Below are positions 77-36,279 of a stretch of DNA of 64,000 bases, in pieces (the stretch's first letter is position 1; each line of letters begins with the position of its first letter). The position numbers were made by a program, and so were the translations under genes. Source of the DNA: Pseudosulfitobacter pseudonitzschiae (lineage in GTDB: Bacteria; Pseudomonadota; Alphaproteobacteria; Rhodobacterales; Rhodobacteraceae); the NCBI RefSeq assembly GCF_002222635.1, contig NZ_CP022420.1, forward strand, positions 1 through 64,000. Reading direction: 5' to 3'. The notes below the pieces were generated by a model that did no database searches, had not been told where the DNA came from, and saw only the letters and a list, made by a program, of their open reading frames with translations.

Positions 77-222
77 CTGCCTTGCGCCCCCCGCCCCGAT
101 GCAGGCGTCTCGTCGCCGCCCATGGCAGGTTTCGCCCTGTTCTGGCCGTCCCGGCTCTGATCCCGCCGCAATTGCTGGAATAGGAAGGGTGCAGGGAAAT
201 TCCCCCCAACCAGGAGTTACAG

Positions 223-1533
223 ATGAGATACGACCAAGGAACCAAACAACGACGCCGGGTGGCAAAGCTTCTGCTTTCCGCGCTACTCGCCACATCGGCG
301 CTCGCCGTCACCCATGCCAACGCAGCCGCGGCCGACGACCCAGCCTGGTGCCAGCCGGATTGCGGTGACCTCGTCAGCGACTGGAGCCTGAACGCTTACG
401 CGGTAATGCGTGCGGCAAACGGCTATGCCGATCCGATGGCCGCCACGCGCGTGCTCGCCACCATGCATATCGCTATGCACGACGCTGCGAATGCCGGCGC
501 GGCAAGATATGCCACGCACACGAGGATCAGTGCGCCCGCCGCGGACTATGACGCGGCGGTCGCCACCGTCGTCGCGGCGCATGACGTGTTGGTCGGATTC
601 TTCCCCGATCAGGCGGCGATCGTCGCAGCCGCGCTCGAGGCTTCGCTGCTTGACGCGGGCGTCGGCGCCGCCGTCCAAGCCGGACGTGCCGTCGGCGCGG
701 ATGCAGCTGCGGCGATCCTTGCCGAACGCGCAACGGATGGCGCCGAAGCCCGGGAAGGCTGGACCGAGCAAGAGGGTGTGGGACATTACCGGCATGTGCC
801 GGGCTGGGACTTCCTGGTCTCGCCGCAGTGGCGCTCGGTCCGTCCCTTCGCACTCGCCTCACCGGATCAGTTCAGGACCGCCCCACCACCGGCTCTCGCT
901 AGCGCCGAATATGCCGTCGAGTTCGCCGAGGTCGCGGCAACCGGCCGGGACGTCTCCGAGACCCGATCGGCCGAGGAAACCGAATACGCGGCGTTCTGGT
1001 ACGAGTTCTCGGACATAGGCTGGAACCGTGCAACCCGCGTTGCAGCGCGCGAGCACGATCTCGATCTGCGCGACAACGCCAGGCTCTTCGCTCTCGTCAA
1101 CGTGGCGATGGCCGACGGCTATATCGCCGGTTGGGACTCGAAGATGCACCACGACTTCTGGCGCCCTGTCACTGCGATCGCGACGGCCGATGATGATGGC
1201 AACCCCGGGACCACCTCCATCGAGAGCTGGGCACCTTTCCTGCCGACGCCGCCCATCCAGGACCACCCCTCGACCCACTCGGTCCTCGGCGCGGCGACTG
1301 CCACGGTGCTCGCGGAAACCCTCGGCGACACGGGTTTCGCGATGACCTCTACGACGGCGTTGGGCCATGCACCATGGCGGAGCTTCGAAGGCTTCACCGA
1401 CGCTGCGGAAGAGAATGCCGAGTCGCGTATCCATGCCGGGATCCATTTCCGCTCGGCGATTGACACGGGTTTGGACCTCGGCCGGAAGATCGGAACGCAT
1501 GTCTTGAACAACTTCCTCGTTCCAGTCAACTAA
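223..1533 (+). CDS. exported vanadium-dependent haloperoxidase-like protein
   Basis: This 436-residue protein resembles bacterial vanadium-dependent haloperoxidases of the PAP2/acid phosphatase superfamily, which bind vanadate and oxidise halides with peroxide, or act as phosphatases. The vanadate-pocket motifs are visible in order: K307 with the following HHDFWRP block, DHPSTHS at 347-353 (His and Ser lining the pocket), and SRIHAGIHFR at 401-410 with the Arg and His expected of the last motif. The N-terminus has a basic stretch (QRRRVAK), a hydrophobic core and an Ala-rich cleavage region around residue 35, so the protein is probably periplasmic. An AGGAG lies 8 bases before the ATG. A strong hairpin follows the stop, so it is probably monocistronic. 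Halide versus phosphate specificity cannot be told from sequence. Confidence 0.83.
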   Translation: MRYDQGTKQRRRVAKLLLSALLATSALAVTHANAAAADDPAWCQPDCGDLVSDWSLNAYAVMRAANGYADPMAATRVLATMHIAMHDAANAGAARYATHTRISAPAADYDAAVATVVAAHDVLVGFFPDQAAIVAAALEASLLDAGVGAAVQAGRAVGADAAAAILAERATDGAEAREGWTEQEGVGHYRHVPGWDFLVSPQWRSVRPFALASPDQFRTAPPPALASAEYAVEFAEVAATGRDVSETRSAEETEYAAFWYEFSDIGWNRATRVAAREHDLDLRDNARLFALVNVAMADGYIAGWDSKMHHDFWRPVTAIATADDDGNPGTTSIESWAPFLPTPPIQDHPSTHSVLGAATATVLAETLGDTGFAMTSTTALGHAPWRSFEGFTDAAEENAESRIHAGIHFRSAIDTGLDLGRKIGTHVLNNFLVPVN

Positions 1534-26307: not shown

Positions 26308-26327
26308 GTCTTGACCGCGGTCAAGAC
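26308..26327. other. parS-like palindrome, copy 2
   Basis: GTCTTGACCGCGGTCAAGAC, a perfect 20-bp palindrome (22 bp with the flanking T and A), lies in the repB-repC gap, 10 bases downstream of the repB stop. Confidence 0.68.
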
Positions 26328-26336
26328 ACGGGGTCG

Positions 26337-27260
26337 TCACTTTGGCCCGTCTTGACCGCGGTCAAGAAGCTCCATGACCAGTTTCCGGACTGCCTCCTCA
26401 ACACGAGGGACAAGATCAGCGTCAACATCGATGGTGATGCGGTTGCCCTTTCGGCCGATCTTCACGCGCTCACTGGGATGTGTCTTCTGCGTCGACGGTT
26501 TGGTGGCTGTCAGCAAGGTAACCGCCGCTTCGAGACGGTCGGGGCCCGGTACGTTGCGAGGGATTTTGCCGGCAACTTCTCGGGCTCTCGCGACGTCTTT
26601 CTCGCACAGCCTGAAAAGCTTTTCCCAAACCCGTCGACCAACGCCGTGTGCAGGTCCGATAGCCTGGATCAGTTCCATCGGGATGCCCGTAGCGATACGG
26701 TTCATCCGCGAGACGAGCGATTCATCGATCTGAAGTGCCCGATACGCGATCGTTTGAGCGTTCTTGCGCGTTTCGTCGGTTTTCCCAAGTTCTCGAATGA
26801 TCCCGGCGACAAACAGAGCCCTTTCGATGAACGATGGGTCTTGACGCGCATTATTCTCCACGCCTTGGGCAATGAGAGCTTCCTCGTCGGTCATCTCCAT
26901 GACCGTGGCGCGCACTTTCTGACCAAGTTGGCGACAAGCGAGAAGCCGACGGCGTCCATAGACGATCTCAAGCGCACCGTCCTGGGTTCGGCGAACCAGC
27001 ACTGGAACCTTTTGACCGTGCTCGCGGATCGACGAGACAAGCTCATCCAGACCATCGCTTGGATCGATGCGGTCCATGACCGCGGACATCCGTATGGCGG
27101 TCGGGTCGATCAGCCGCGTGGCGTGTTTATCTTCTTCGAGCACGGATGCTTGTGCGCGAGCTACAGTCGGGCTCGTTCGCTTCACATCCAGATCCTCGTC
27201 CGAAGGCGGCGTTTTGCCCATCGCGTTCTTGAGTGAGTCCCCGAAGACCTTACGCGCCAT
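26337..27260 (-). CDS. repB: plasmid partition protein RepB (ParB family)
   Basis: A 307-residue RepB, the centromere-binding protein of the RepAB partition system. The N-terminal segment (MARKVFGDSLKNAMG) is the RepB leader that contacts RepA. The ParB domain follows: SDGLDELVSSIREHGQKVPV, YGRRRLLACRQLGQKV, EEALIAQGVENNARQDPSFIERA and the helix-turn-helix region ALQIDESLVSRMNRIATGIP. Its start overlaps the end of repA by 11 bases. Its 3' end contains a parS-like palindrome read as LDRGQD in the protein. Confidence 0.91.
   Translation of the reverse strand: MARKVFGDSLKNAMGKTPPSDEDLDVKRTSPTVARAQASVLEEDKHATRLIDPTAIRMSAVMDRIDPSDGLDELVSSIREHGQKVPVLVRRTQDGALEIVYGRRRLLACRQLGQKVRATVMEMTDEEALIAQGVENNARQDPSFIERALFVAGIIRELGKTDETRKNAQTIAYRALQIDESLVSRMNRIATGIPMELIQAIGPAHGVGRRVWEKLFRLCEKDVARAREVAGKIPRNVPGPDRLEAAVTLLTATKPSTQKTHPSERVKIGRKGNRITIDVDADLVPRVEEAVRKLVMELLDRGQDGPK
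26350..26367. other. parS-like palindrome, copy 3, inside repB
   Basis: TCTTGACCGCGGTCAAGA lies within the last codons of repB, 10 bases from the stop and 22 bases from copy 2, so the two copies form a close pair. Confidence 0.68.
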
Positions 27261-28431: not shown

Positions 28432-28782
28432 CACTGCCCTCAAGTCTTTGTTGTTTTGCAAAGCTTAACAGATATTGTGGATAAATCCAGACCAAACCGT
28501 TGAGCGGCCTGGGGGCGTTGAAGGCACCGATTTCTGTCGACGGTAAACTGTTAAAAATCAGCGTCTTGGGCGACTGCGCTCTCGCTCTACTTCAACACCT
28601 CGTTGCCAACTACGTAGTGACCACAAGATGTATTGTGAGTGCGTACAGAAATCAGTCGGCAGAATCGGATGGGCGATTCTCGTGTCGCGTTTAGTTCCCG
28701 ATTTCAATTGAAGCAGTAAGCTGAAACTGAAGCGCTGGAATTTCATCTTAGCGCTTCACCAACGCGTCAAGATTCCTGAGCT
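28432..28782. promoter_or_regulatory. repA upstream region with a consensus DnaA box
   Basis: No gene is seen in these 350 bases between repA and the recombinase gene. TTATCCACA, the perfect E. coli-type DnaA box, is present on the minus strand at 28476-28484, 45 bases upstream of the repA start. The stretch is more AT-rich than its surroundings and must contain the repABC promoter and the RepA operator, neither of which I can point to with confidence. Confidence 0.5.
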
Positions 28783-29934
28783 TCACAGCCCTGAGGCTTT
28801 GGTCAGGTTCACCCTGAACCTGTCGCGCCTGCGCTGGTAGCGCCGGGTCATCTCGGCCGACGCATGTCCGAGTTGCTTTTGAACATAGCGCTCATCAACC
28901 TCTGCCGACGAGGCGAGCCCGGCACGTAAGGAATGGCCGGAGAACATCGCCAACCGTTTAGCTTCCGGCAGATCAGATCTGACGCCACTCTTCAGAACGG
29001 TCGCCTTGATCAGCCGGGCGACGTGCTTGTCGGAAAGTCGTGTCTCGAGGGCGCGTTTGCCGTCCCGCGACGTACGCACGAAAACCGGCCCGAAGTCGAT
29101 CTTTGCAAAATACAGCCATTGCTCAAGTGCGTGGACAGGACAGGTCTGGTCGCTTGAGCCGCGCCCGACCTCGACCTCGCGCCACCCGGTCTTGGCGTTC
29201 AGCGTCAGCAGAGCGCCATCTTCGAAAATCTCGATCCAACCGCCGGAGTCCGGTGTATCATCCTTGTGCACGTCAAGGCTCACGATCTCGGAGCGACGGA
29301 GACCTCCAGCATAGCCCAGAAGTAAGATCGCCCGGTCTCGAAGCCCGCGGAGATCATAGGGAAGGGTGCCCACCATGGCCTGGATGTCCTCCGGCAGGAT
29401 CGCTTCCTTCTGAACCGGCGGACGCGCGTGTTTGCGCCTAATCCCGGCCAGAACGGTGGCGACATGGCGGTCCTTGCGATCAAGAGTGAACCCTCGCTGC
29501 CTGTAATTCCAAGCGAGGCCGGAGAGGCGCCGCTCAATGGTGGAGACCGAGAGAGCAGGGGCCTTCCCGGTCGCGGCGGCCAGGTCCGCCACATAGAGCC
29601 CGACCATCTCGGGCGAGGAGGGCAGGGGATCCGTCCCTTTCAGCCGGCACCAGCGGGTGAAGTGTTTCCAGTCGGCCGAGTAGGCCTTGTTGGTGTTCTC
29701 AGCTGTAGAGGCCTCGGCGTAGTCGCGCGCGGTGTCGATCAGCCGGTCGAGCGCGCCGGAGCCGGCCACATGAGCGGGCAGAGCGATTGAGGCTCGGTCC
29801 CGAGAGGTTCTCTCGTCGTGTTCGTCACTGTTCAGCGAGTCATAGGACGCTGAGCTCGAAATCTCTGCGTCAGACGCGTCGGAATCCTCGATTTTGGTGC
29901 CGTTATTCGTGAGACTGCTCATGTTTCCGAGCAT
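28783..29934 (-). CDS. tyrosine recombinase / site-specific integrase
   Basis: A 383-residue tyrosine recombinase. Residues about 62-165 form the SAM-like core-binding domain (YSADWKHFTRWCRLKG). The catalytic domain has all active residues: R213 (GGLRRSEI), K248 (NAKTGWREV), H334 and R337 (HSLRAGLA), H357 (LGHAS) and Y366 (TRRYQRR). The first 50 residues are an acidic Ser-rich tail. The start at 29922 is an equal alternative. It may resolve plasmid multimers or mediate integration; its 5' flank carries a 10-5-10 palindrome. Confidence 0.88.
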   Translation of the reverse strand: MLGNMSSLTNNGTKIEDSDASDAEISSSASYDSLNSDEHDERTSRDRASIALPAHVAGSGALDRLIDTARDYAEASTAENTNKAYSADWKHFTRWCRLKGTDPLPSSPEMVGLYVADLAAATGKAPALSVSTIERRLSGLAWNYRQRGFTLDRKDRHVATVLAGIRRKHARPPVQKEAILPEDIQAMVGTLPYDLRGLRDRAILLLGYAGGLRRSEIVSLDVHKDDTPDSGGWIEIFEDGALLTLNAKTGWREVEVGRGSSDQTCPVHALEQWLYFAKIDFGPVFVRTSRDGKRALETRLSDKHVARLIKATVLKSGVRSDLPEAKRLAMFSGHSLRAGLASSAEVDERYVQKQLGHASAEMTRRYQRRRDRFRVNLTKASGL

Positions 29935-29945
29935 ATCATTTTTAC

Positions 29946-29970
29946 GTCCGATAACGCAAGGTTATCGGAC
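29946..29970. repeat. 10-5-10 inverted repeat upstream of the recombinase
   Basis: GTCCGATAAC (29946-29955), GCAAG, GTTATCGGAC (29961-29970): perfect arms with a 5-base asymmetric centre, 12 bases from the recombinase start and between divergent genes. The shape fits a tyrosine-recombinase core site or an operator. Confidence 0.55.
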
Positions 29971-30048
29971 ATCATGGCAAAAGATAGAGCGAGGCGTTTT
30001 CTGTGCTATTTTCTGGAGCAAAGCGCCGCGATGGTTTAGGCTTCAGTC

Positions 30049-30933
30049 ATGACATTTGCCCGACCGGAACACTCCATCGACACAGACACTCTACCCCGGA
30101 TGCCCGCATGGGTCACCTCGGCACGTCCTGAAGCCTTTGAAGATGTGGCGTTTTTATCAGGCGCGGCGCTGAACCACCTGCATCTTGTGTTGGGACGCGA
30201 AGAGGTCCCCAAAGCCTTGTTGCGGGATCGGCTGGCGCTGCGAGCGGCCGAGGCATGTGCCGGGTTTTCTGGTCGTCCGGAAAGAGCCCCAGAGCTGCGC
30301 GACGCGATTCATCTTCTGCGCCCTGGCGATCTACCTGGTCCCGCGGGGGAAACTTACCTTGCCTGGCGTCGCGCGGTGGAGCGGCCGGTGTCGATCAAGG
30401 CTCTGGGCCGAGCCTTGCCGATCTTGGAGTTGGGCCAGATTGCTACATGGCTCGATACGGGGAAGGGAGCGCCGGTGACCCGTGCCGCGATGGCGCTGGA
30501 TGCTGTCCTGACGGAGGCACCCCGTGCCGAAGTCCCGGCGTTGATCCTCGCGGACGCCGCCCTCGCCCAGGCGCTTGGTTGGGATCATGTCGTGCCGCTG
30601 CTGGCCGCGGGTTTGAAACGCACAGACCTGCGCAAGCGGGGTGACGATTTGCGCCTAGCCTGTCATCGCGCAGTGACCGCATCCGCGGTCGAGGCCGCGC
30701 GTCTGGCTGTCGATCTCGCGCGTCGGGCTTCGCTTTTGAAAGGAGTTGCACCAAAGCTTCGGGCCAAGGGGGCAGGGGCGGCGGTGAAAATATTCCTGAC
30801 GCAGGACGCCGTGGCGCCCAGTGCCCTGCCTTTGCCGGACCGCGCGGCGCGGCGGCTCTGTGACCGGCTTGTCGATCTCGGCGCGGTCCGTGAGCTAACC
30901 GGGCGCGACACATTCCGGCTCTACGGGGTGTAG
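30049..30933 (+). CDS. DUF1403 family protein
   Basis: A 294-residue protein matching the DUF1403 pattern: FLSGAALNHLHLVL, RLALRAAEACAGFSGRPE, LRDAIHLLRPGDLPGPAG and a C-terminal LCDRLVDLGAVRELTGRDTFRLYG that resembles a winged-helix wing. DUF1403 genes are found on rhizobial and rhodobacterial plasmids, often beside ScpB-like and RHE_PE00001-type genes as here. No function is established. It is 2 bases from the scpB-like gene, so co-expressed. Confidence 0.76.
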   Translation: MTFARPEHSIDTDTLPRMPAWVTSARPEAFEDVAFLSGAALNHLHLVLGREEVPKALLRDRLALRAAEACAGFSGRPERAPELRDAIHLLRPGDLPGPAGETYLAWRRAVERPVSIKALGRALPILELGQIATWLDTGKGAPVTRAAMALDAVLTEAPRAEVPALILADAALAQALGWDHVVPLLAAGLKRTDLRKRGDDLRLACHRAVTASAVEAARLAVDLARRASLLKGVAPKLRAKGAGAAVKIFLTQDAVAPSALPLPDRAARRLCDRLVDLGAVRELTGRDTFRLYGV

Positions 30934-30935
30934 CC

Positions 30936-31592
30936 ATGAGCATGGACAGCGAAAGTGGGAACCGGTTTCGCGGTTCGGACATGCGACCGGAAAGGAAGTC
31001 GAAGGATCGACCAGAAGCTGAGCTTGATCGCGAGTTGCTCGACCTGCCACCGGAGTTGCGCTGGCGGGAATGGATGCGCCGGATCGAGGCGGTGCTGTTT
31101 GCCTCTGCCTCGCCTGTACCGCGCGAGGATCTGGCGCGCATAGTGGGGCAGGGGACTTCGGTTGATCTGCTGTTGGAAGACCTTGCCGCTGATCTGGAAG
31201 GGCGGGCGTTCGAGATTGCCATGGTCGCAGGGGGGTGGATGTTCCGGACGCGGCCTGTTTACGCGCCTGCGATCCGCGCCGCAGCGGATGTCGGAGACCA
31301 GTTGCTGGACCTGAACGAGTTCGACGTCGCGATTTTGGCGGCCATCGCCTACCACCAGCCGATCACCCGCGATGGGCTCAAAGACATCTTTGGCAAAGAG
31401 ATCAGCCGGGACCTGATCGGAAGGCTGCATGCGCAGGGTCTGATTGGAACTGGGCCGCGCGCGCCGCGTCGTGGTGCCCCCTATACCTTCGTCACCACAG
31501 ACGCGTTCCTCGCAGCTTTCGGGCTGGAGAGCTTGCGCGACCTGCCAGATGCTGAACAGCTGAATGATGCCGGGCTGGCCGCGCGCGCCTGA
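30936..31592 (+). CDS. ScpB-like protein (SMC accessory, plasmid version)
   Basis: A 218-residue ScpB homologue. The two winged helices are visible: RIEAVLFASASPVPREDLAR for the first, and DVAILAAIAYHQPITRDGLK followed by IGRLHAQGLIGTGPRAPRRG and YTFVTTDAFLAAFGLESL for the second. ScpB normally pairs with kleisin ScpA on SMC; no scpA or smc lies here, so it may plug into the chromosomal condensin or act alone. Residues 1-45 are a charged leader. It is coupled to the DUF1403 gene and convergent with tniQ 16 bases away. Confidence 0.8.
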   Translation: MSMDSESGNRFRGSDMRPERKSKDRPEAELDRELLDLPPELRWREWMRRIEAVLFASASPVPREDLARIVGQGTSVDLLLEDLAADLEGRAFEIAMVAGGWMFRTRPVYAPAIRAAADVGDQLLDLNEFDVAILAAIAYHQPITRDGLKDIFGKEISRDLIGRLHAQGLIGTGPRAPRRGAPYTFVTTDAFLAAFGLESLRDLPDAEQLNDAGLAARA

Positions 31593-31608
31593 AACTCACC
31601 GGGAATTT

Positions 31609-32619
31609 TTACAGCGCTTGCCGCTGCTGATCGAGCCGCGCGGCCGCCTGAACGAGATCCGCCAAATGCGGGCCAGCGGTGGTAGAGCAAGGCCCAGCTT
31701 TGGGCCGAGGCAGGACGGCATCGCTGAAAGATGTGACCAGTCCGCTCCAAGCTGGCGCAGCCTGAACGACGCGTTTCCAATAGATAATCGCGGAACTTCT
31801 TCTCTTTTCGAACGGCGTCGACCGCCCTTCCGCCAATTTCTGAAACAGCTGATAGCGATCCCGATGAGAGAGGCGCGCGATGGACATTGGCCGTCGACTA
31901 AATTGAAAGCAGGCTGATCCAAGAAGGTCCGGGAGTGATCGCCCCTCTGCCATTCGATGCCCTGATGCCTGCAGACGAAGCAGATCGTCGATCAGACGCT
32001 CAAGACGCCGAACCCCATTGGTGGCAGGACGGATGCGTTTGCAGAGGGCCGCGCCGCACCAGGCGCAGATCTGATGCGGCACAAGACGCTTCTGGCTGAA
32101 CGGAGCCAATCCTTGTCCGCAGGATGGGCACCTGTCCCGAAGTCGGCAGCCGTGGCGAAAGCAAGAAACGCGTGTCGCGAGGCGCCAGTCTCGGCGAAAA
32201 TAGGGCGTTTCGTCTTCCGTCAGACAAGCGGGACAGAACTGCAGCCAGGTAACCTGCCTCCTGGGTGCGCAACTCTGCTGAGGCGATGCCCGCAGGGGCA
32301 AACGCAGCACAGCCAAAGGGTCAGGGGCAATGGTCAGAGCCGCGATGTCTTCCACGGGTATGCCGGTATGCTCTCGCAGAAACTGCAGGATGCGATCGGG
32401 CAACGCCCGATCAAGCCGCGCCGACCAGTTCTCACCCGGCGCTCCGAGAAGCGTGCCAAAATAGTGCGGAGGTATGCCGTTCGCGTAGGCGAGGCGGTGC
32501 AGCCAACTCGACAGAAGTTCACCTGGTGCGGGCATAATGCTCACTGGCCAACGGCTTCCCGCCACACTTTCATACCGCTCTGCAGATGTGACGGATATCT
32601 CGGTCGGCCCAAACCTCAT
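31609..32619 (-). CDS. tniQ: TniQ family transposition protein
   Basis: A 336-residue TniQ/TnsD-type protein. The N-terminal region (PAPGELLSSWLHRLAYANG) is the TniQ signature. Zinc-finger cysteines follow in CPACLTEDETPYFRRDWRLA, CFRHGCRLRDRCPSCG and ICAWCG. TniQ proteins choose target sites and bridge the target DNA to the TniB ATPase. The start overlaps the end of tniB by 4 bases. The C-terminal region beyond about 260 is less conserved. Confidence 0.82.
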   Translation of the reverse strand: MRFGPTEISVTSAERYESVAGSRWPVSIMPAPGELLSSWLHRLAYANGIPPHYFGTLLGAPGENWSARLDRALPDRILQFLREHTGIPVEDIAALTIAPDPLAVLRLPLRASPQQSCAPRRQVTWLQFCPACLTEDETPYFRRDWRLATRVSCFRHGCRLRDRCPSCGQGLAPFSQKRLVPHQICAWCGAALCKRIRPATNGVRRLERLIDDLLRLQASGHRMAEGRSLPDLLGSACFQFSRRPMSIARLSHRDRYQLFQKLAEGRSTPFEKRRSSAIIYWKRVVQAAPAWSGLVTSFSDAVLPRPKAGPCSTTAGPHLADLVQAAARLDQQRQAL

Positions 32620-33482
32620 GTCATATCGTGACGCAAAGCGGAATTACGGCGCCTCGAGAGAGGCACATAGCCGAGGTCCCACAGGGTTGCGCCCGTGATC
32701 CGGCCCTCACCGCGCGAGATTGCCGCCACTGCGGCACGGGTGACGATCTCGACAACCTCGCCGATCAGCCCCTCTGACAGATCATGGATGATCTTCGCCA
32801 AGGGTTCGCGCGACAGATCGGAGGTGTCGGCGAGCGGCAGACTGGCTTCCAGGCTGTCGAGAAGCGTCGCGAATTCCTCGTCATACGGCCATCGTGGAAT
32901 GGGGATCGTATCGAAACGTGAGCCCATTTCGTCGGTGTCATGCACCGCATCGTAGATCGCGATTTCGCCGACAAGGACTGGTGAGATGTCATGCACCCGT
33001 GCGATCCGCCGCAAGAACGAGAAGATGGCCTTCACATCCTGGCGCCGCCCGCGCAATGCGCTGTGGAACTCGTCGAAGATCAAAAGGCGCGGCTTCAGGC
33101 GCTCCAGAAGATGATCGACCTGATCGCCGGCGCGGGACAGGCTGCGCCAGCCCGCGGCTTGTGGCGCGCGCAATCCGGACAGGATGCTGGCATAGAAATG
33201 CGACAGGCCTGCACCTTCCCGGGTCTGGATCACCCACACCTTTTGCTGGTCGGCGGTACGCAGATGTTCGATGGCGAAGCGTTCGGCGATCATGGTCTTG
33301 CCGTTGTGGTAGGGACCGGCAAGCAGCAAACCGCGTGGGCGCAGCGATGGCGGTCGCTCGAGCAGCAGTCGCATCGCGTCATGCGCCGCGCCGGCGGCCG
33401 GATGGCTGATCCAGCGCGGCGCGCGAACATGGGCGATCCGCACTGCGTCATCGGCCTGCAAGAGCGGGATTATGGCGGGCAT
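32616..33482 (-). CDS. tniB: TniB AAA+ ATPase
   Basis: A 288-residue TniB/TnsC-type regulator. ALHVRAPRWISHP-like text (IAHVRAPRWISHPAAGAAH) opens the family, Walker A is GPYHNGKT (56-63), Walker B LLIFDEFHS, and ARVHDISPVLVGEIAIYDAV precedes a sensor. TniB activates TniA and passes on the target choice. The ATG at 33482 lies 16 bases past the tniA stop; a GTG at 33497 is possible. It overlaps tniQ by 4 bases. Confidence 0.85.
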   Translation of the reverse strand: MPAIIPLLQADDAVRIAHVRAPRWISHPAAGAAHDAMRLLLERPPSLRPRGLLLAGPYHNGKTMIAERFAIEHLRTADQQKVWVIQTREGAGLSHFYASILSGLRAPQAAGWRSLSRAGDQVDHLLERLKPRLLIFDEFHSALRGRRQDVKAIFSFLRRIARVHDISPVLVGEIAIYDAVHDTDEMGSRFDTIPIPRWPYDEEFATLLDSLEASLPLADTSDLSREPLAKIIHDLSEGLIGEVVEIVTRAAVAAISRGEGRITGATLWDLGYVPLSRRRNSALRHDMT

Positions 33483-33498
33483 GAGGTGATCCGGCACC

Positions 33499-35133
33499 CT
33501 ACCAATCCTCGACAGGGAAGACCCGCCGAGGGCGATCCGGATCGAGCTTTTCTTGGGTCGGGACGGAAGGCGCGGCGAAGTCGGCATAAGGCTTCTTTGC
33601 CTCGGTGGCATGCCGGGCGCGGGTCATCTCCTTCAACCGGCTTTTGGGGGTTTTGGCGGCGGCAGCAGTGGCTGCGATTTCGCGTCGGATGGCTGATGCC
33701 TCCTGCACAGGGCGCCGCTGGATTTCACGCCGCTGCTGTCGATCCGCCTGGTGCTGCCAAAGCGTGATCGGCTCGGCCAGTCCGTCCCGTCGCCTGACCG
33801 GCCGCCAGGCCTGCGTATCCGGATCCTTGACGTAGACATGGCTGATGTCGCGAGGATCATAGCACAGATCGAGCGGCTCCAGCCGGTCACGACGCGCAAC
33901 CAGCGGGCCAAGCCAGGGCTCGAAATAGTCGATGGCGAAGAGACTGATGCCCTGAGGTGAAATTTTCCGCGTCTTGCGTGGCAGGAAATTCAGCAGCACA
34001 TCGACAGGCGCATCGATAGGCCGGTCCTTCGGCTGGAACCGATCTTCCCACTCTTTCGCCGGAACGGTCAGCCTGCGCGCATTCTGGCTCAGGTTGTGGT
34101 CGATGATCGCGAGCGCGATGCAGCGTTCAAGATCCGCGAAGCTGAGCCGTGCCCGCGCTTCCGAGGCATAGTCGCCCCGATCCGCGATGGAACGCCCCGT
34201 CTTGCCGGGCAAGGCGCGTAGCGCGGTGTTCACTTTCCCAAGCAGGCGTTCCACGACTCCGCCCCGATGCACGGTGCCCTTGTTCCGCATGCGTATGGCG
34301 ATGCCATAGTCCGCGCATCCTCTGCTGAAGGTGCTGCTCTGGAACTCCTTGGCGGAATCGACGACGATTTGCTTCGGGCGACCGTGCATCGGCCAGGCAT
34401 GATCGATACCGCGTTCTGCCAGCCAGTCAATCTTGCAGCACATCGCGTGCGCCAGACAAAGCGCGACAGACAGTCGTGACGGCCGCTCGAGGGTCAGGCA
34501 GAAGCCGATGATCGCGCTCGTGGCCACATCTGCAGCGATGGTCAGATAGGGACGACCAACGAAGACACCGTGGTCATCAATCACCTCAACAAATTGGATG
34601 TCTGCCGGCGTGTGATCGATCTGGACAACGTCGAGCGCGTGGTTAGCCCGGATGTAGCCCGGTCGCGGCTTCAGCCGGTGCAGGTGTTTACCATCCGACA
34701 GGCGGCGGCGGGCAATTTCTTCCGGGGCGAACAGAATGGGGATCCGCCGGGCGACAGTGACATAGGCGGGTGGAGTGTGCCCTTCCTCTGCGCAGCGGGT
34801 GCGGATCTCTTCAACGATCGGTGCAAGGTCCGGCTGCTCCGGGCGCAACCACATCTCCCGCAGGGTCACCGCGATGATGTTCTCGACTGCGGGGTTGATC
34901 CTTGGTTGTCTTGTTCCACTCCTTCGCGGCAGAAGGGACGATACCCTGCGCTCTTCCCGATACCGCGCCAGATAGTTGTAGACTTGGCGTGTCGAGAGCC
35001 GCAGCTCGGATGCCGCGCGCATCACGGCCTCACGCACCGGCGCCGCTCCGTCAAGAATCCGGTCCAACTCGCGCGCGGTACGCGTCGCCTTGGCCCACGC
35101 TTCATCCGAGGCATGCGCTTCGCCGGACGTCAT
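33499..35133 (-). CDS. tniA: TniA transposase (DDE, Mu/TnsB type)
   Basis: A 544-residue transposase. An N-terminal helix-turn-helix (LRLSTRQVYNYLARYREE) and a second DNA-binding part precede the RNase H-like core with D173 (VVQIDHTPADI), D259 (IVVDSAKEF) and E295 (RGGVVERLLG). A Mu-C-type beta barrel follows, with a basic C-terminal tail. The start at 35133 is preferred; a GTG at 35184 is possible. First gene of a tniABQ operon. No terminal inverted repeats or target duplications are identified. Confidence 0.88.
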   Translation of the reverse strand: MTSGEAHASDEAWAKATRTARELDRILDGAAPVREAVMRAASELRLSTRQVYNYLARYREERRVSSLLPRRSGTRQPRINPAVENIIAVTLREMWLRPEQPDLAPIVEEIRTRCAEEGHTPPAYVTVARRIPILFAPEEIARRRLSDGKHLHRLKPRPGYIRANHALDVVQIDHTPADIQFVEVIDDHGVFVGRPYLTIAADVATSAIIGFCLTLERPSRLSVALCLAHAMCCKIDWLAERGIDHAWPMHGRPKQIVVDSAKEFQSSTFSRGCADYGIAIRMRNKGTVHRGGVVERLLGKVNTALRALPGKTGRSIADRGDYASEARARLSFADLERCIALAIIDHNLSQNARRLTVPAKEWEDRFQPKDRPIDAPVDVLLNFLPRKTRKISPQGISLFAIDYFEPWLGPLVARRDRLEPLDLCYDPRDISHVYVKDPDTQAWRPVRRRDGLAEPITLWQHQADRQQRREIQRRPVQEASAIRREIAATAAAAKTPKSRLKEMTRARHATEAKKPYADFAAPSVPTQEKLDPDRPRRVFPVEDW

Positions 35134-35319
35134 CGATATGAAACTTCCGAGACCGGCTGGGTCATGCGCCAACAGGGCGGCCACTTGCTGAAATACGTAG
35201 CCAAAATTGAAGCCTTAAGCTGAAAAATGATGTGTGCTTACCCCGTATCATCCAGAAATCACGTAATAATCATGTGCTGAAATGGTGAAGAAAATGCGAC
35301 AGTTGTTCTGCCCGGTCCC
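35134..35319. repeat. tniA upstream region with three GCTGAAA repeats
   Basis: GCTGAAA occurs at about 35187, 35218 and 35276, all in the same orientation, in the gap between tniA and the divergent RHE_PE00001-like gene. Repeats near tniA/tnsB usually mark a transposon end, but the copies agree only over 7-8 bases and I cannot place an end. Confidence 0.3.
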
Positions 35320-36279
35320 ATGGAAGAGGAACCGGATTATCTGCCGCCCGGACCGCGGGACGAACCGCGTGAAACCGAGGTCCTCGACGATTGGCGGAAG
35401 GCAGAGGCGGGTCATGCCGCGCGTCTTGCCCGTGTGGCCGGTCGCGTCGGCGCGCTGGACGACCGCCTGAAGCGCAGCCCGGAAGGCTGGCGGCACAGGC
35501 TTGCCCTGATCGAGGCTGCTGATCTCAGCTGGTTCGCGGGAGACCGCATCGGCCCGGATCGGCTGGCGCTCTGGATTTCCATGCGCATTTCCGGCCTGCA
35601 AGACGACACCGCTGCACTCGCGCGGGTTGGTTGGGCGGTACGTCGTCTGACAGGCGGGCCAGGCCCAGAGGTGGACCTGTCTGGCTTCCTCGACCGCCGC
35701 GATCCTGAGAACATGGCAGATGAAGCCGAGTCTTTCGCGGGCCGTGCGGGCGGTTGGCTAGGCCTGATGGCACAAGCCGCCGATCTTCACACTATAACTC
35801 GCGCCTGCGTGGGCTTTCACTTTTGGAGCCTCGCGGGCCTCGGGCAGCAGGGCGATCGAATGGAAGCGGCAGTCACGGCCGCGCGGATCGCGGCCAGCGA
35901 GGAGAGAGGCGCAGTCTTTGCGCCTCTGGCCATGGGCGGGGCAGGGGGGCTGCGCGCCGGCGGCCCACCCGCTGACCGTCTGGCGCGCTGGCTTGACGGG
36001 ATGGAGACCGCCTGCCTGACCGCAATGCGGCACCTTGACGATATCGAGGCATGGTCAGCGCGGGCAGAAACCGAGATGACCCCGCTCTCGGGCCGCACGC
36101 CCCCGGCCTTGTGCGCTGTTCTAACCGAATGGCCACTCGTCTCCGCCCCGATGGCCGAGGCTCTGACTGGTGCCAGTCGCGCCGCCGTCCAGCGCAACCT
36201 TGCCTGGATGGAAGCGCGGGGTTTGATCCGCGAGATGACCGGGCAGGATCGGTATCGGATGTGGCGCGCCGCGAACTGA
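35320..36279 (+). CDS. RHE_PE00001 family protein with C-terminal HTH
   Basis: A 319-residue protein that looks like the RHE_PE00001/DUF1612 family found at repABC plasmid loci in rhizobia and rhodobacteria. The first half is helical (RHRLALIEAADLSWFAG, ALWISMRISGLQDD). The C-terminal 70 residues contain a helix-turn-helix (PPALCAVLTEWPLVSAPMAE, TGASRAAVQRNLAWMEARGL). No strong ribosome site precedes the ATG, so the start is uncertain. It is divergent from tniA. Function unknown; a DNA-binding plasmid maintenance role is inference. Confidence 0.7.
   Translation: MEEEPDYLPPGPRDEPRETEVLDDWRKAEAGHAARLARVAGRVGALDDRLKRSPEGWRHRLALIEAADLSWFAGDRIGPDRLALWISMRISGLQDDTAALARVGWAVRRLTGGPGPEVDLSGFLDRRDPENMADEAESFAGRAGGWLGLMAQAADLHTITRACVGFHFWSLAGLGQQGDRMEAAVTAARIAASEERGAVFAPLAMGGAGGLRAGGPPADRLARWLDGMETACLTAMRHLDDIEAWSARAETEMTPLSGRTPPALCAVLTEWPLVSAPMAEALTGASRAAVQRNLAWMEARGLIREMTGQDRYRMWRAAN

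Follow-up and report, generated by a model that had tools for sequence, protein, structure and literature searches.

Elements of the Tn5053 type, placed in clade 3 of the Tn7-like transposons, carry either serine or tyrosine resolvases, and the absence of tnsA is taken to predict replicative transposition, according to passages of PMC8649781. The rst site of the TnpS/TnpT system of Tn4651 consists of two pairs of inverted repeats lying between divergent genes, as excerpts of PMC7157771 describe it. Tni transposons that carry a tyrosine resolvase are, as such, already known. Here we describe a 64,000-nucleotide stretch of Pseudosulfitobacter pseudonitzschiae DNA (hereafter the window), part of the 142-kb contig C6 in a genome of eight contigs and 5.1 Mb, which contains a Tni transposon encoding, besides its transposition proteins, a tyrosine recombinase (REC), a DUF1403 protein and a ScpB-like protein. 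We consider it quite likely that this is a Tn5053-like replicative transposon relying for resolution on REC and a short core site, a system that it would share with RepABC plasmid backbones and in which DUF1403 and ScpB would be accessory.

Judging from its borders, the interval 28683-35301 of the window (6,619 bp) is a complete Tni transposon of the form TGTCGC...GCGACA. The left border of homology is sharp and common, falling at 28680-28683 when the window is aligned with six related loci (L021, L031-L034 and L037), the sharers being the Roseovarius indicus plasmids pRIdsm_01, pRIdsm_02 and pRIdsm_03, two Pseudosulfitobacter plasmids and contig C4 of the same genome. The left end (28683-28713, forward strand) starts at 28683 with TGTCGCGTTTAGTTCCCGATTTCAATTGAAG, its opening also being given as TGTCGCGTTTAG, and the right end (35277-35301, reverse strand) is the inverted TGTCGCATTTTCTTCACCATTTCAG starting at 35301. 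The motif TGAAGCNNTAAGNTGAAA, itself derived from these ends, occurs in the window 3 times with at most 1 mismatch, always at the ends, against 0 occurrences expected in 100 shuffles. These three repeats, at 28709-28726 (forward strand, 0 mismatches, 0 expected), 28741-28758 (reverse strand) and 35208-35225 (forward strand), resemble TniA-binding sites and are presumably bound by TniA. The Tn5053/Tn402 family has TGTCG ends of its own, and the inverted TGTCG ends with repeated internal sites are among the features that the element shares with that family. The direct repeat AATTGAAGC..TAAGCTGAAA, considered as a pair of attachment sites for REC, was rejected as being part of the three end repeats. 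The sequence-only reading of the locus had found no transposon ends and had delimited the block at 28783-36279; both statements give way to the ends and limits described here. It had also stated that a TniABQ element with ends of its own, inserted here, would speak against its proposal. Such an element between scpB and the neighbouring RHE_PE00001-like gene was rejected, since the gap between scpB and tniQ measures 16 bases, just as had been claimed, and the left end at 28683 lies outside REC.

Six genes fill the element. REC (28783-29934, reverse strand; PF00589) is a TnpS/Cre-like tyrosine recombinase. On the forward strand lie DUF1403 (30049-30933; PF07183, E 6.8e-99), with a C-terminal region that is HTH_13-like at a score under the Pfam cut-off, and the ScpB-like gene (30936-31592; PF04079, E 3.3e-34). 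The remaining three genes, on the reverse strand, encode TniQ (31609-32619), the TniB ATPase (32616-33611) and the TniA DDE transposase (33499-35184; PF09299 and a weak rve match), the starts of TniB and TniA falling at about 33482 and 35133, respectively, judging from annotated relatives. TniA can be aligned to solved TnsB chains (7svw, E 1.4e-31), its DDE positions being assigned by eye. Among the profile matches of the six genes there is no PF00239 serine resolvase of the TniR type, and none of the six is TnsA. The RHE_PE00001-like open reading frame (35320-36279, forward strand) lies outside the element, within the 3' remainder of an interrupted target gene (35302-36279, forward strand). 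All seven genes named in the sequence-only reading are present and open; the seventh is real under a weak label (it scores 22 bits, the curated cut-off being 250), and the suggestion that the whole block forms one element holds for ScpB and DUF1403 and fails for the RHE_PE00001-like gene. The recurrence of the gene order on unrelated plasmids with common ends is confirmed by the homologous loci compared. With TniA, TniB and TniQ, an alignable transposase core and no TnsA, the element resembles Tn5053/Tn402, clade 3 of Benler et al. (PMC8649781). It differs in that REC, the core dyad, DUF1403 and ScpB replace TniR and res, and in the lack of cargo between the ends. Because no TnsA occurs among the six genes, transposition should yield cointegrates.

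The putative core recombination site, GTCCGATAA-CGCAAGG-TTATCGGAC (29946-29970, forward strand), is backed by sequence conservation and by crossover mapping. It is a 25-bp dyad of 9-bp arms and a 7-bp spacer situated between REC and DUF1403, where the compared relatives have GTCCGATAA-N7-TTATYGGAC in common with few changes. A second dyad, an accessory site and/or operator with arms GGCGTTTT and AAAGCGCCG, follows at 29993-30028 (forward strand). Compared over 1,150 bp on each side of the core, the window and the R. indicus elements have an identity of 0.885 to the left and 1.0 to the right; with contig C4 the left-hand identity is 1.0, and this match ends at 29977. Aligned in this way, the window is a hybrid joined at the core, its left half like C4 and its right half like R. 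indicus. Farther out, window positions 36300-60000 match R. indicus pRIdsm_03 at 99.7% over half of their length, and the rep side is 93-96% identical to plasmids of Sulfitobacter, Salipiger and Pseudosulfitobacter across roughly one third of the query. The left end and REC are 96.9% identical to Phaeobacter, and the DUF1403-ScpB side of Phaeobacter only 76.9%. An initial scan gave 211 strong change points of identity, 65 of them within 30 bp of the core. Among 86 pairs that are near-identical on one side only (139 distinct sites), the change point overlapped the core, taken with a margin of 4 bp on either side, in 62. Of the 93 change points obtained with the core as anchor, 76 lay no more than 20 bp from it, against 7 of 215 near shifted anchors (0/11 at -450, 0/17 at -300, 0/68 at -150, 5/57 at +150, 1/36 at +300 and 1/26 at +450). 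On the evidence of these alignments, natural crossovers occur at the core.

REC is 28% identical over 298 amino acids (E 2e-20) to the site-specific integrase of pWW0, which we take, from its place beside a divergent KfrA_N gene, to be the TnpS of Tn4651. Its best match in the PDB is Cre. Since REC is TnpS/Cre-like and its site follows the same plan as rst, we infer that REC and the core constitute a resolution system, with REC as the enzyme. The dissimilarity of DUF1403 to the presumed TnpT (KfrA_N), the additional ScpB and the Tni rather than Tn3 transposase set the locus apart from TnpS/TnpT. What the two have in common is a tyrosine recombinase with a divergent partner and a two-dyad site in between, the arrangement given for Tn4651 in excerpts of PMC7157771. 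With Cre/lox the locus shares a single plasmid tyrosine recombinase and a dyad core, a likeness drawn through the Cre protein, its top structural-database match, rather than through a comparison with lox; the second dyad and the two companion genes are features of the present system. The SMC-ScpA-ScpB condensin is brought to mind by membership in the ScpB family, the ScpB-like protein being 35% identical to the ScpB of contig C1, the presumed chromosome. Here, unlike in condensin, ScpB is tied to a recombination site, and the gene tables of the compared loci, which are incomplete and were not supplemented by a ScpA or SMC profile search, list neither ScpA nor SMC.

In the mechanism that we propose, TniA, TniB and TniQ would insert the element replicatively with a 5-bp duplication, preferably in or about the interval that separates a plasmid serine-recombinase gene from the 5' end of a facing RHE_PE00001-like gene. 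The resulting cointegrates would be resolved by REC on the core, instead of by a serine resolvase. DUF1403 and ScpB, whose operon adjoins the site, would most likely serve as accessory or architectural factors bound to the second dyad, in the way that TnpT serves TnpS. The module formed by REC, the core, DUF1403 and ScpB is also found beside repABC on many alphaproteobacterial plasmids, and crossovers between these copies would in addition fuse plasmids and exchange replicon modules.

Both ends and their flanks were available in 12 loci (the window, L031-L034, L037, L091, L140, L141, L243, L245 and L246), a sample in view of the 67 plasmid records in which most of window 29975-35301 is present, few of which were compared. 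The draft contig L089 is occupied almost entirely by the element, which there encloses a second Tni set, and so offers no flanks. As far as the flanks allow the original gene to be reconstructed, the RHE_PE00001-like gene is the insertion target, interrupted near its 5' end, and no part of the element. Left flanks match a stretch of contig C8 of the same genome, which holds a serine-recombinase gene (PF00239) and a facing RHE_PE00001-like gene, in 14 of 17 cases. Four of them (L031, L032, L091 and L148) stop at the identical base within the 5' coding part of the RHE_PE00001-like gene, three (L142, L243 and C4) stop no more than 20 bases from that junction, and one (L247) stops between the two genes. 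Another four (L033, L034, L037 and L245) stop within the serine-recombinase gene, and in L105 and L140 the C8 match lies nearby and falls short of the junction. Junctions within the neighbouring recombinase gene may represent adjacent deletions, which they resemble, as expected from replicative transposition. Aligned over 6,619 columns, the three R. indicus elements agree at 100.0%, and their right-hand target genes are 72.9-81.0% alike; because the elements are identical and the target genes divergent, the copies appear to be independent insertions at one base position. Perfect 5-bp duplications are seen in two of the 12 two-ended elements (CTGGT in L031, GTGGT in L032, both from R. indicus plasmids), and joining the flanks of these two restores the target frame (...DLWFLPGP...), as in the intact copy on C8. 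Such duplications where intact, together with insertion beside a plasmid serine-recombinase gene, may be further points of likeness to Tn5053/Tn402; the insertion is seen in the 14 matching flanks, the res site itself not having been located. In L140 and L141, two contigs of one genome whose elements align at 100.0%, the flanks are swapped, and the 5-mer CCGGC stands to the right of the element in one and to the left in the other. Two right-end-like sequences in L036 (at 2755 and 8884; also in L035) bracket about 6 kb between TniA and the RHE_PE00001-like gene. This stretch encodes a VWA protein, an alpha/beta-hydrolase-like protein and two unknowns; the inner right-end-like sequence reads GCGACG, and the stretch may be cargo captured by the outer end.

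Full-length DUF1403 genes numbered 72, comprising the window, L017, L019 and the survey loci L083-L152, which were drawn from DUF1403 places in 71 of 292 genomes of the order, with strong matches and lone core sites included and short weak matches omitted. ScpB adjoins DUF1403 in all 72, the core (at most 2 mismatches) is near 59 of the pairs, and RepABC-type genes lie within 9.5 kb of 41; TniQ follows ScpB in 8 and does not in 64. The core pattern GTCCRATAANNCAANNTTATYGGAC matches 59 sites in 40 of the 292 genomes, and its reversed control none. Of these sites, 49 lie just upstream of DUF1403 (45 of a full-length gene, at up to 350 bp, and 4 of a fragment) and 10 stand alone. Among the named loci, 78 of 80 have the core with at most 2 mismatches. 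The genome studied here has five core sites on five contigs (C2 81628, C3 173266, C4 241537, C6 29946 and C7 10090); neither REC nor DUF1403 turned up in the surroundings of the C2 site, out to about 9.5 kb, and a Tni element separates the C3 site from REC. Several draft contigs start or stop about 50-340 bases from a core (G195 C21, C4 and C14; G182 C3; G131 C15; G237 C24), as would be expected from repeats or mixed junctions.

Across 84 aligned sites the second dyad approximates GGCGGTTT...AAAGCGCCG, L155 and L117 being among the exceptions; by a looser pattern it begins 17-22 bases past the core in 78 of 80 sites. L130 has a proper dyad. Core and dyad are both kept in the Hyphomicrobiales (Rhizobium, Nitrobacter, Methylocella and Bradyrhizobium), Nitrobacter having its arms altered on both sides (GACC/GGTC) and Bradyrhizobium showing 4 mismatches. 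Read by eye, a promoter-like TTGTGG-17-TAGTGT overlaps the second dyad. Where the core stands without DUF1403 (e.g. L020 and L156-L160), the dyad arms are kept and the promoter-like parts altered, again by eye. As these sites keep the arms though the dyad otherwise goes with DUF1403, we favor a double role for it.

Several observations weigh against the proposed mechanism. The core within 2 mismatches is missing at 13 of the 72 DUF1403-ScpB pairs, and a divergent REC is present at only 42, 8 of the 72 lying within 1.5 kb of a contig edge. The second dyad is retained in 11 of the 12 core-less loci away from contig edges (L110 lacks it; L143, one of the 12, has a diverged core with 21 of 25 bases), so that it may be only the promoter or operator of DUF1403. 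A likeness to TnpS, such as REC shows, is not confined to resolvases. DUF1403 shows no match to the presumed TnpT, of which it was rejected as a homologue, and its structure model is poor, with a predicted local distance difference test score (pLDDT) of 58.8. A matching flanking 5-mer is absent from 10 of the 12 two-ended elements, the window included, and three of the 17 left flanks (the window, L141 and L246) lack the C8 target-region match. Identity switches away from the core make up 17 of 93 (e.g. +147..168 and +402..436), and the mosaic pairs share members and are hence not independent events.

It is an even question whether the module is primarily a plasmid backbone device for the resolution of RepABC multimers, akin to Cre/lox and captured by the transposon, in which DUF1403 and ScpB aid monomerisation or segregation. 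Its frequent position beside repABC without Tni genes, borne out by the RepABC and TniQ counts of the survey, speaks for such an origin, as do a Mameliella REC whose stop lies 12 bp from the repC stop and the top rank of Cre among the PDB matches. Yet complete mobile elements hold the module between their ends, and in Paracoccus and Rhizobium stretches devoid of Tni genes, too, a left end occurs on the REC side of DUF1403. Such a device is compatible with a replicative transposon resolved by REC, the difference being which role came first.

That DUF1403 and ScpB form a small regulatory or SMC-loading pair repressing its own promoter, close to the core by linkage only, seems rather unlikely to us. 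It would account for the promoter-like sequence overlapping the dyad and for the dyad in the core-less loci, and contact with SMC is thinkable given the resemblance to the C1 ScpB. It fits less well with the arms kept at lone core sites beside altered promoter-like parts, with the nearly constant spacing of core and dyad and the persistence of both in the Hyphomicrobiales, and with gene tables, incomplete as they are, that name no ScpA or SMC gene. Far less credible still is an origin of the identity switches in ordinary homologous recombination, or in different rates of REC and DUF1403, without involvement of REC: the switches located elsewhere would suit it, but drops from 1.000 to about 0.78 inside 25 bp in many genera and the anchor control do not fit rates or random breakpoints. 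The proposal of the sequence-only reading that ScpB couples chromosome folding to target choice by TniQ, suggested by the adjacency of scpB and tniQ, is highly improbable, given the 64 pairs without a following TniQ and the separation of TniQ from ScpB in a second-class Tni element of L087; a part in recombination or resolution suits DUF1403 and ScpB better, because the core and REC are their usual partners.

This second class of Tni element, with ends TGTCGTTCTTGTTCC..., lies to the REC side of the core, with a distance of exactly 29 bp between its right end and the core in L020, L087, L089 and L127. L101 shows no such end, and no 5-bp duplication was seen for these elements. Returning to resolution by REC, we suggest, with somewhat less than even confidence, that the KITE (ScpB-family) protein and DUF1403 form an architectural part that binds the second dyad, shapes both sites and steers REC to resolution over fusion. 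The same site would be a docking point at which alphaproteobacterial RepABC plasmids swap replicon and cargo halves, and a target read by the second Tni class 29 bp away. Other transposition genes were also observed near the module. In Actibacterium pNS6002 (L244, 2204-5837), an annotated Tn3-family transposase and a PF00239 recombinase separate the core from a copy of REC (81% identical), and in Nitrobacter plasmid 3 (L252, Hyphomicrobiales) TniA and TniB lie upstream of the core and DUF1403-ScpB.

In the surroundings of the transposon, contig C6 has ParA, ParB and RepC matches, the last at 136.9 bits, under the curated cut-off of 150. A perfect 19-bp inverted repeat, TCTTGACCGCGGTCAAGAC, is found at window 26309-26367, at the 3' end of a repB-like gene. 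Just past the window, at C6 65774-67747 (L023), an extra TniB stands beside a C-terminal RHE_PE00001-like piece. Searches with DUF1403 gave little: its model has no PDB structural match at E <= 0.001, its profile matches PDB sequences only weakly (E 0.53 and 0.76), and PHROGs contains nothing for DUF1403 or the RHE_PE00001-like protein at E <= 0.01. DUF1403 was rejected as a full paralogue of the latter, a profile comparison giving 43% probability and E 2.5e-4 in the C-terminal region only.

In the open-access literature searched we found neither DUF1403 nor ScpB, plasmid, repABC and transposon together, and did not meet the pairing of DUF1403 with ScpB, the site of two dyads, the use of this site in RepABC backbones as well, or targeting at 29 bp. 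RHE_PE00001 appears there in two papers. The system offers a testable function for DUF1403 and for a plasmid ScpB without an SMC partner named beside it, and would extend the known routes of cointegrate resolution in Tn7-like elements lacking TnsA. Multi-replicon bacteria would exchange their replication modules and cargo at one short site, recognizable by its pattern in two orders, which suggests how the plasmids of marine bacteria reshuffle their parts.

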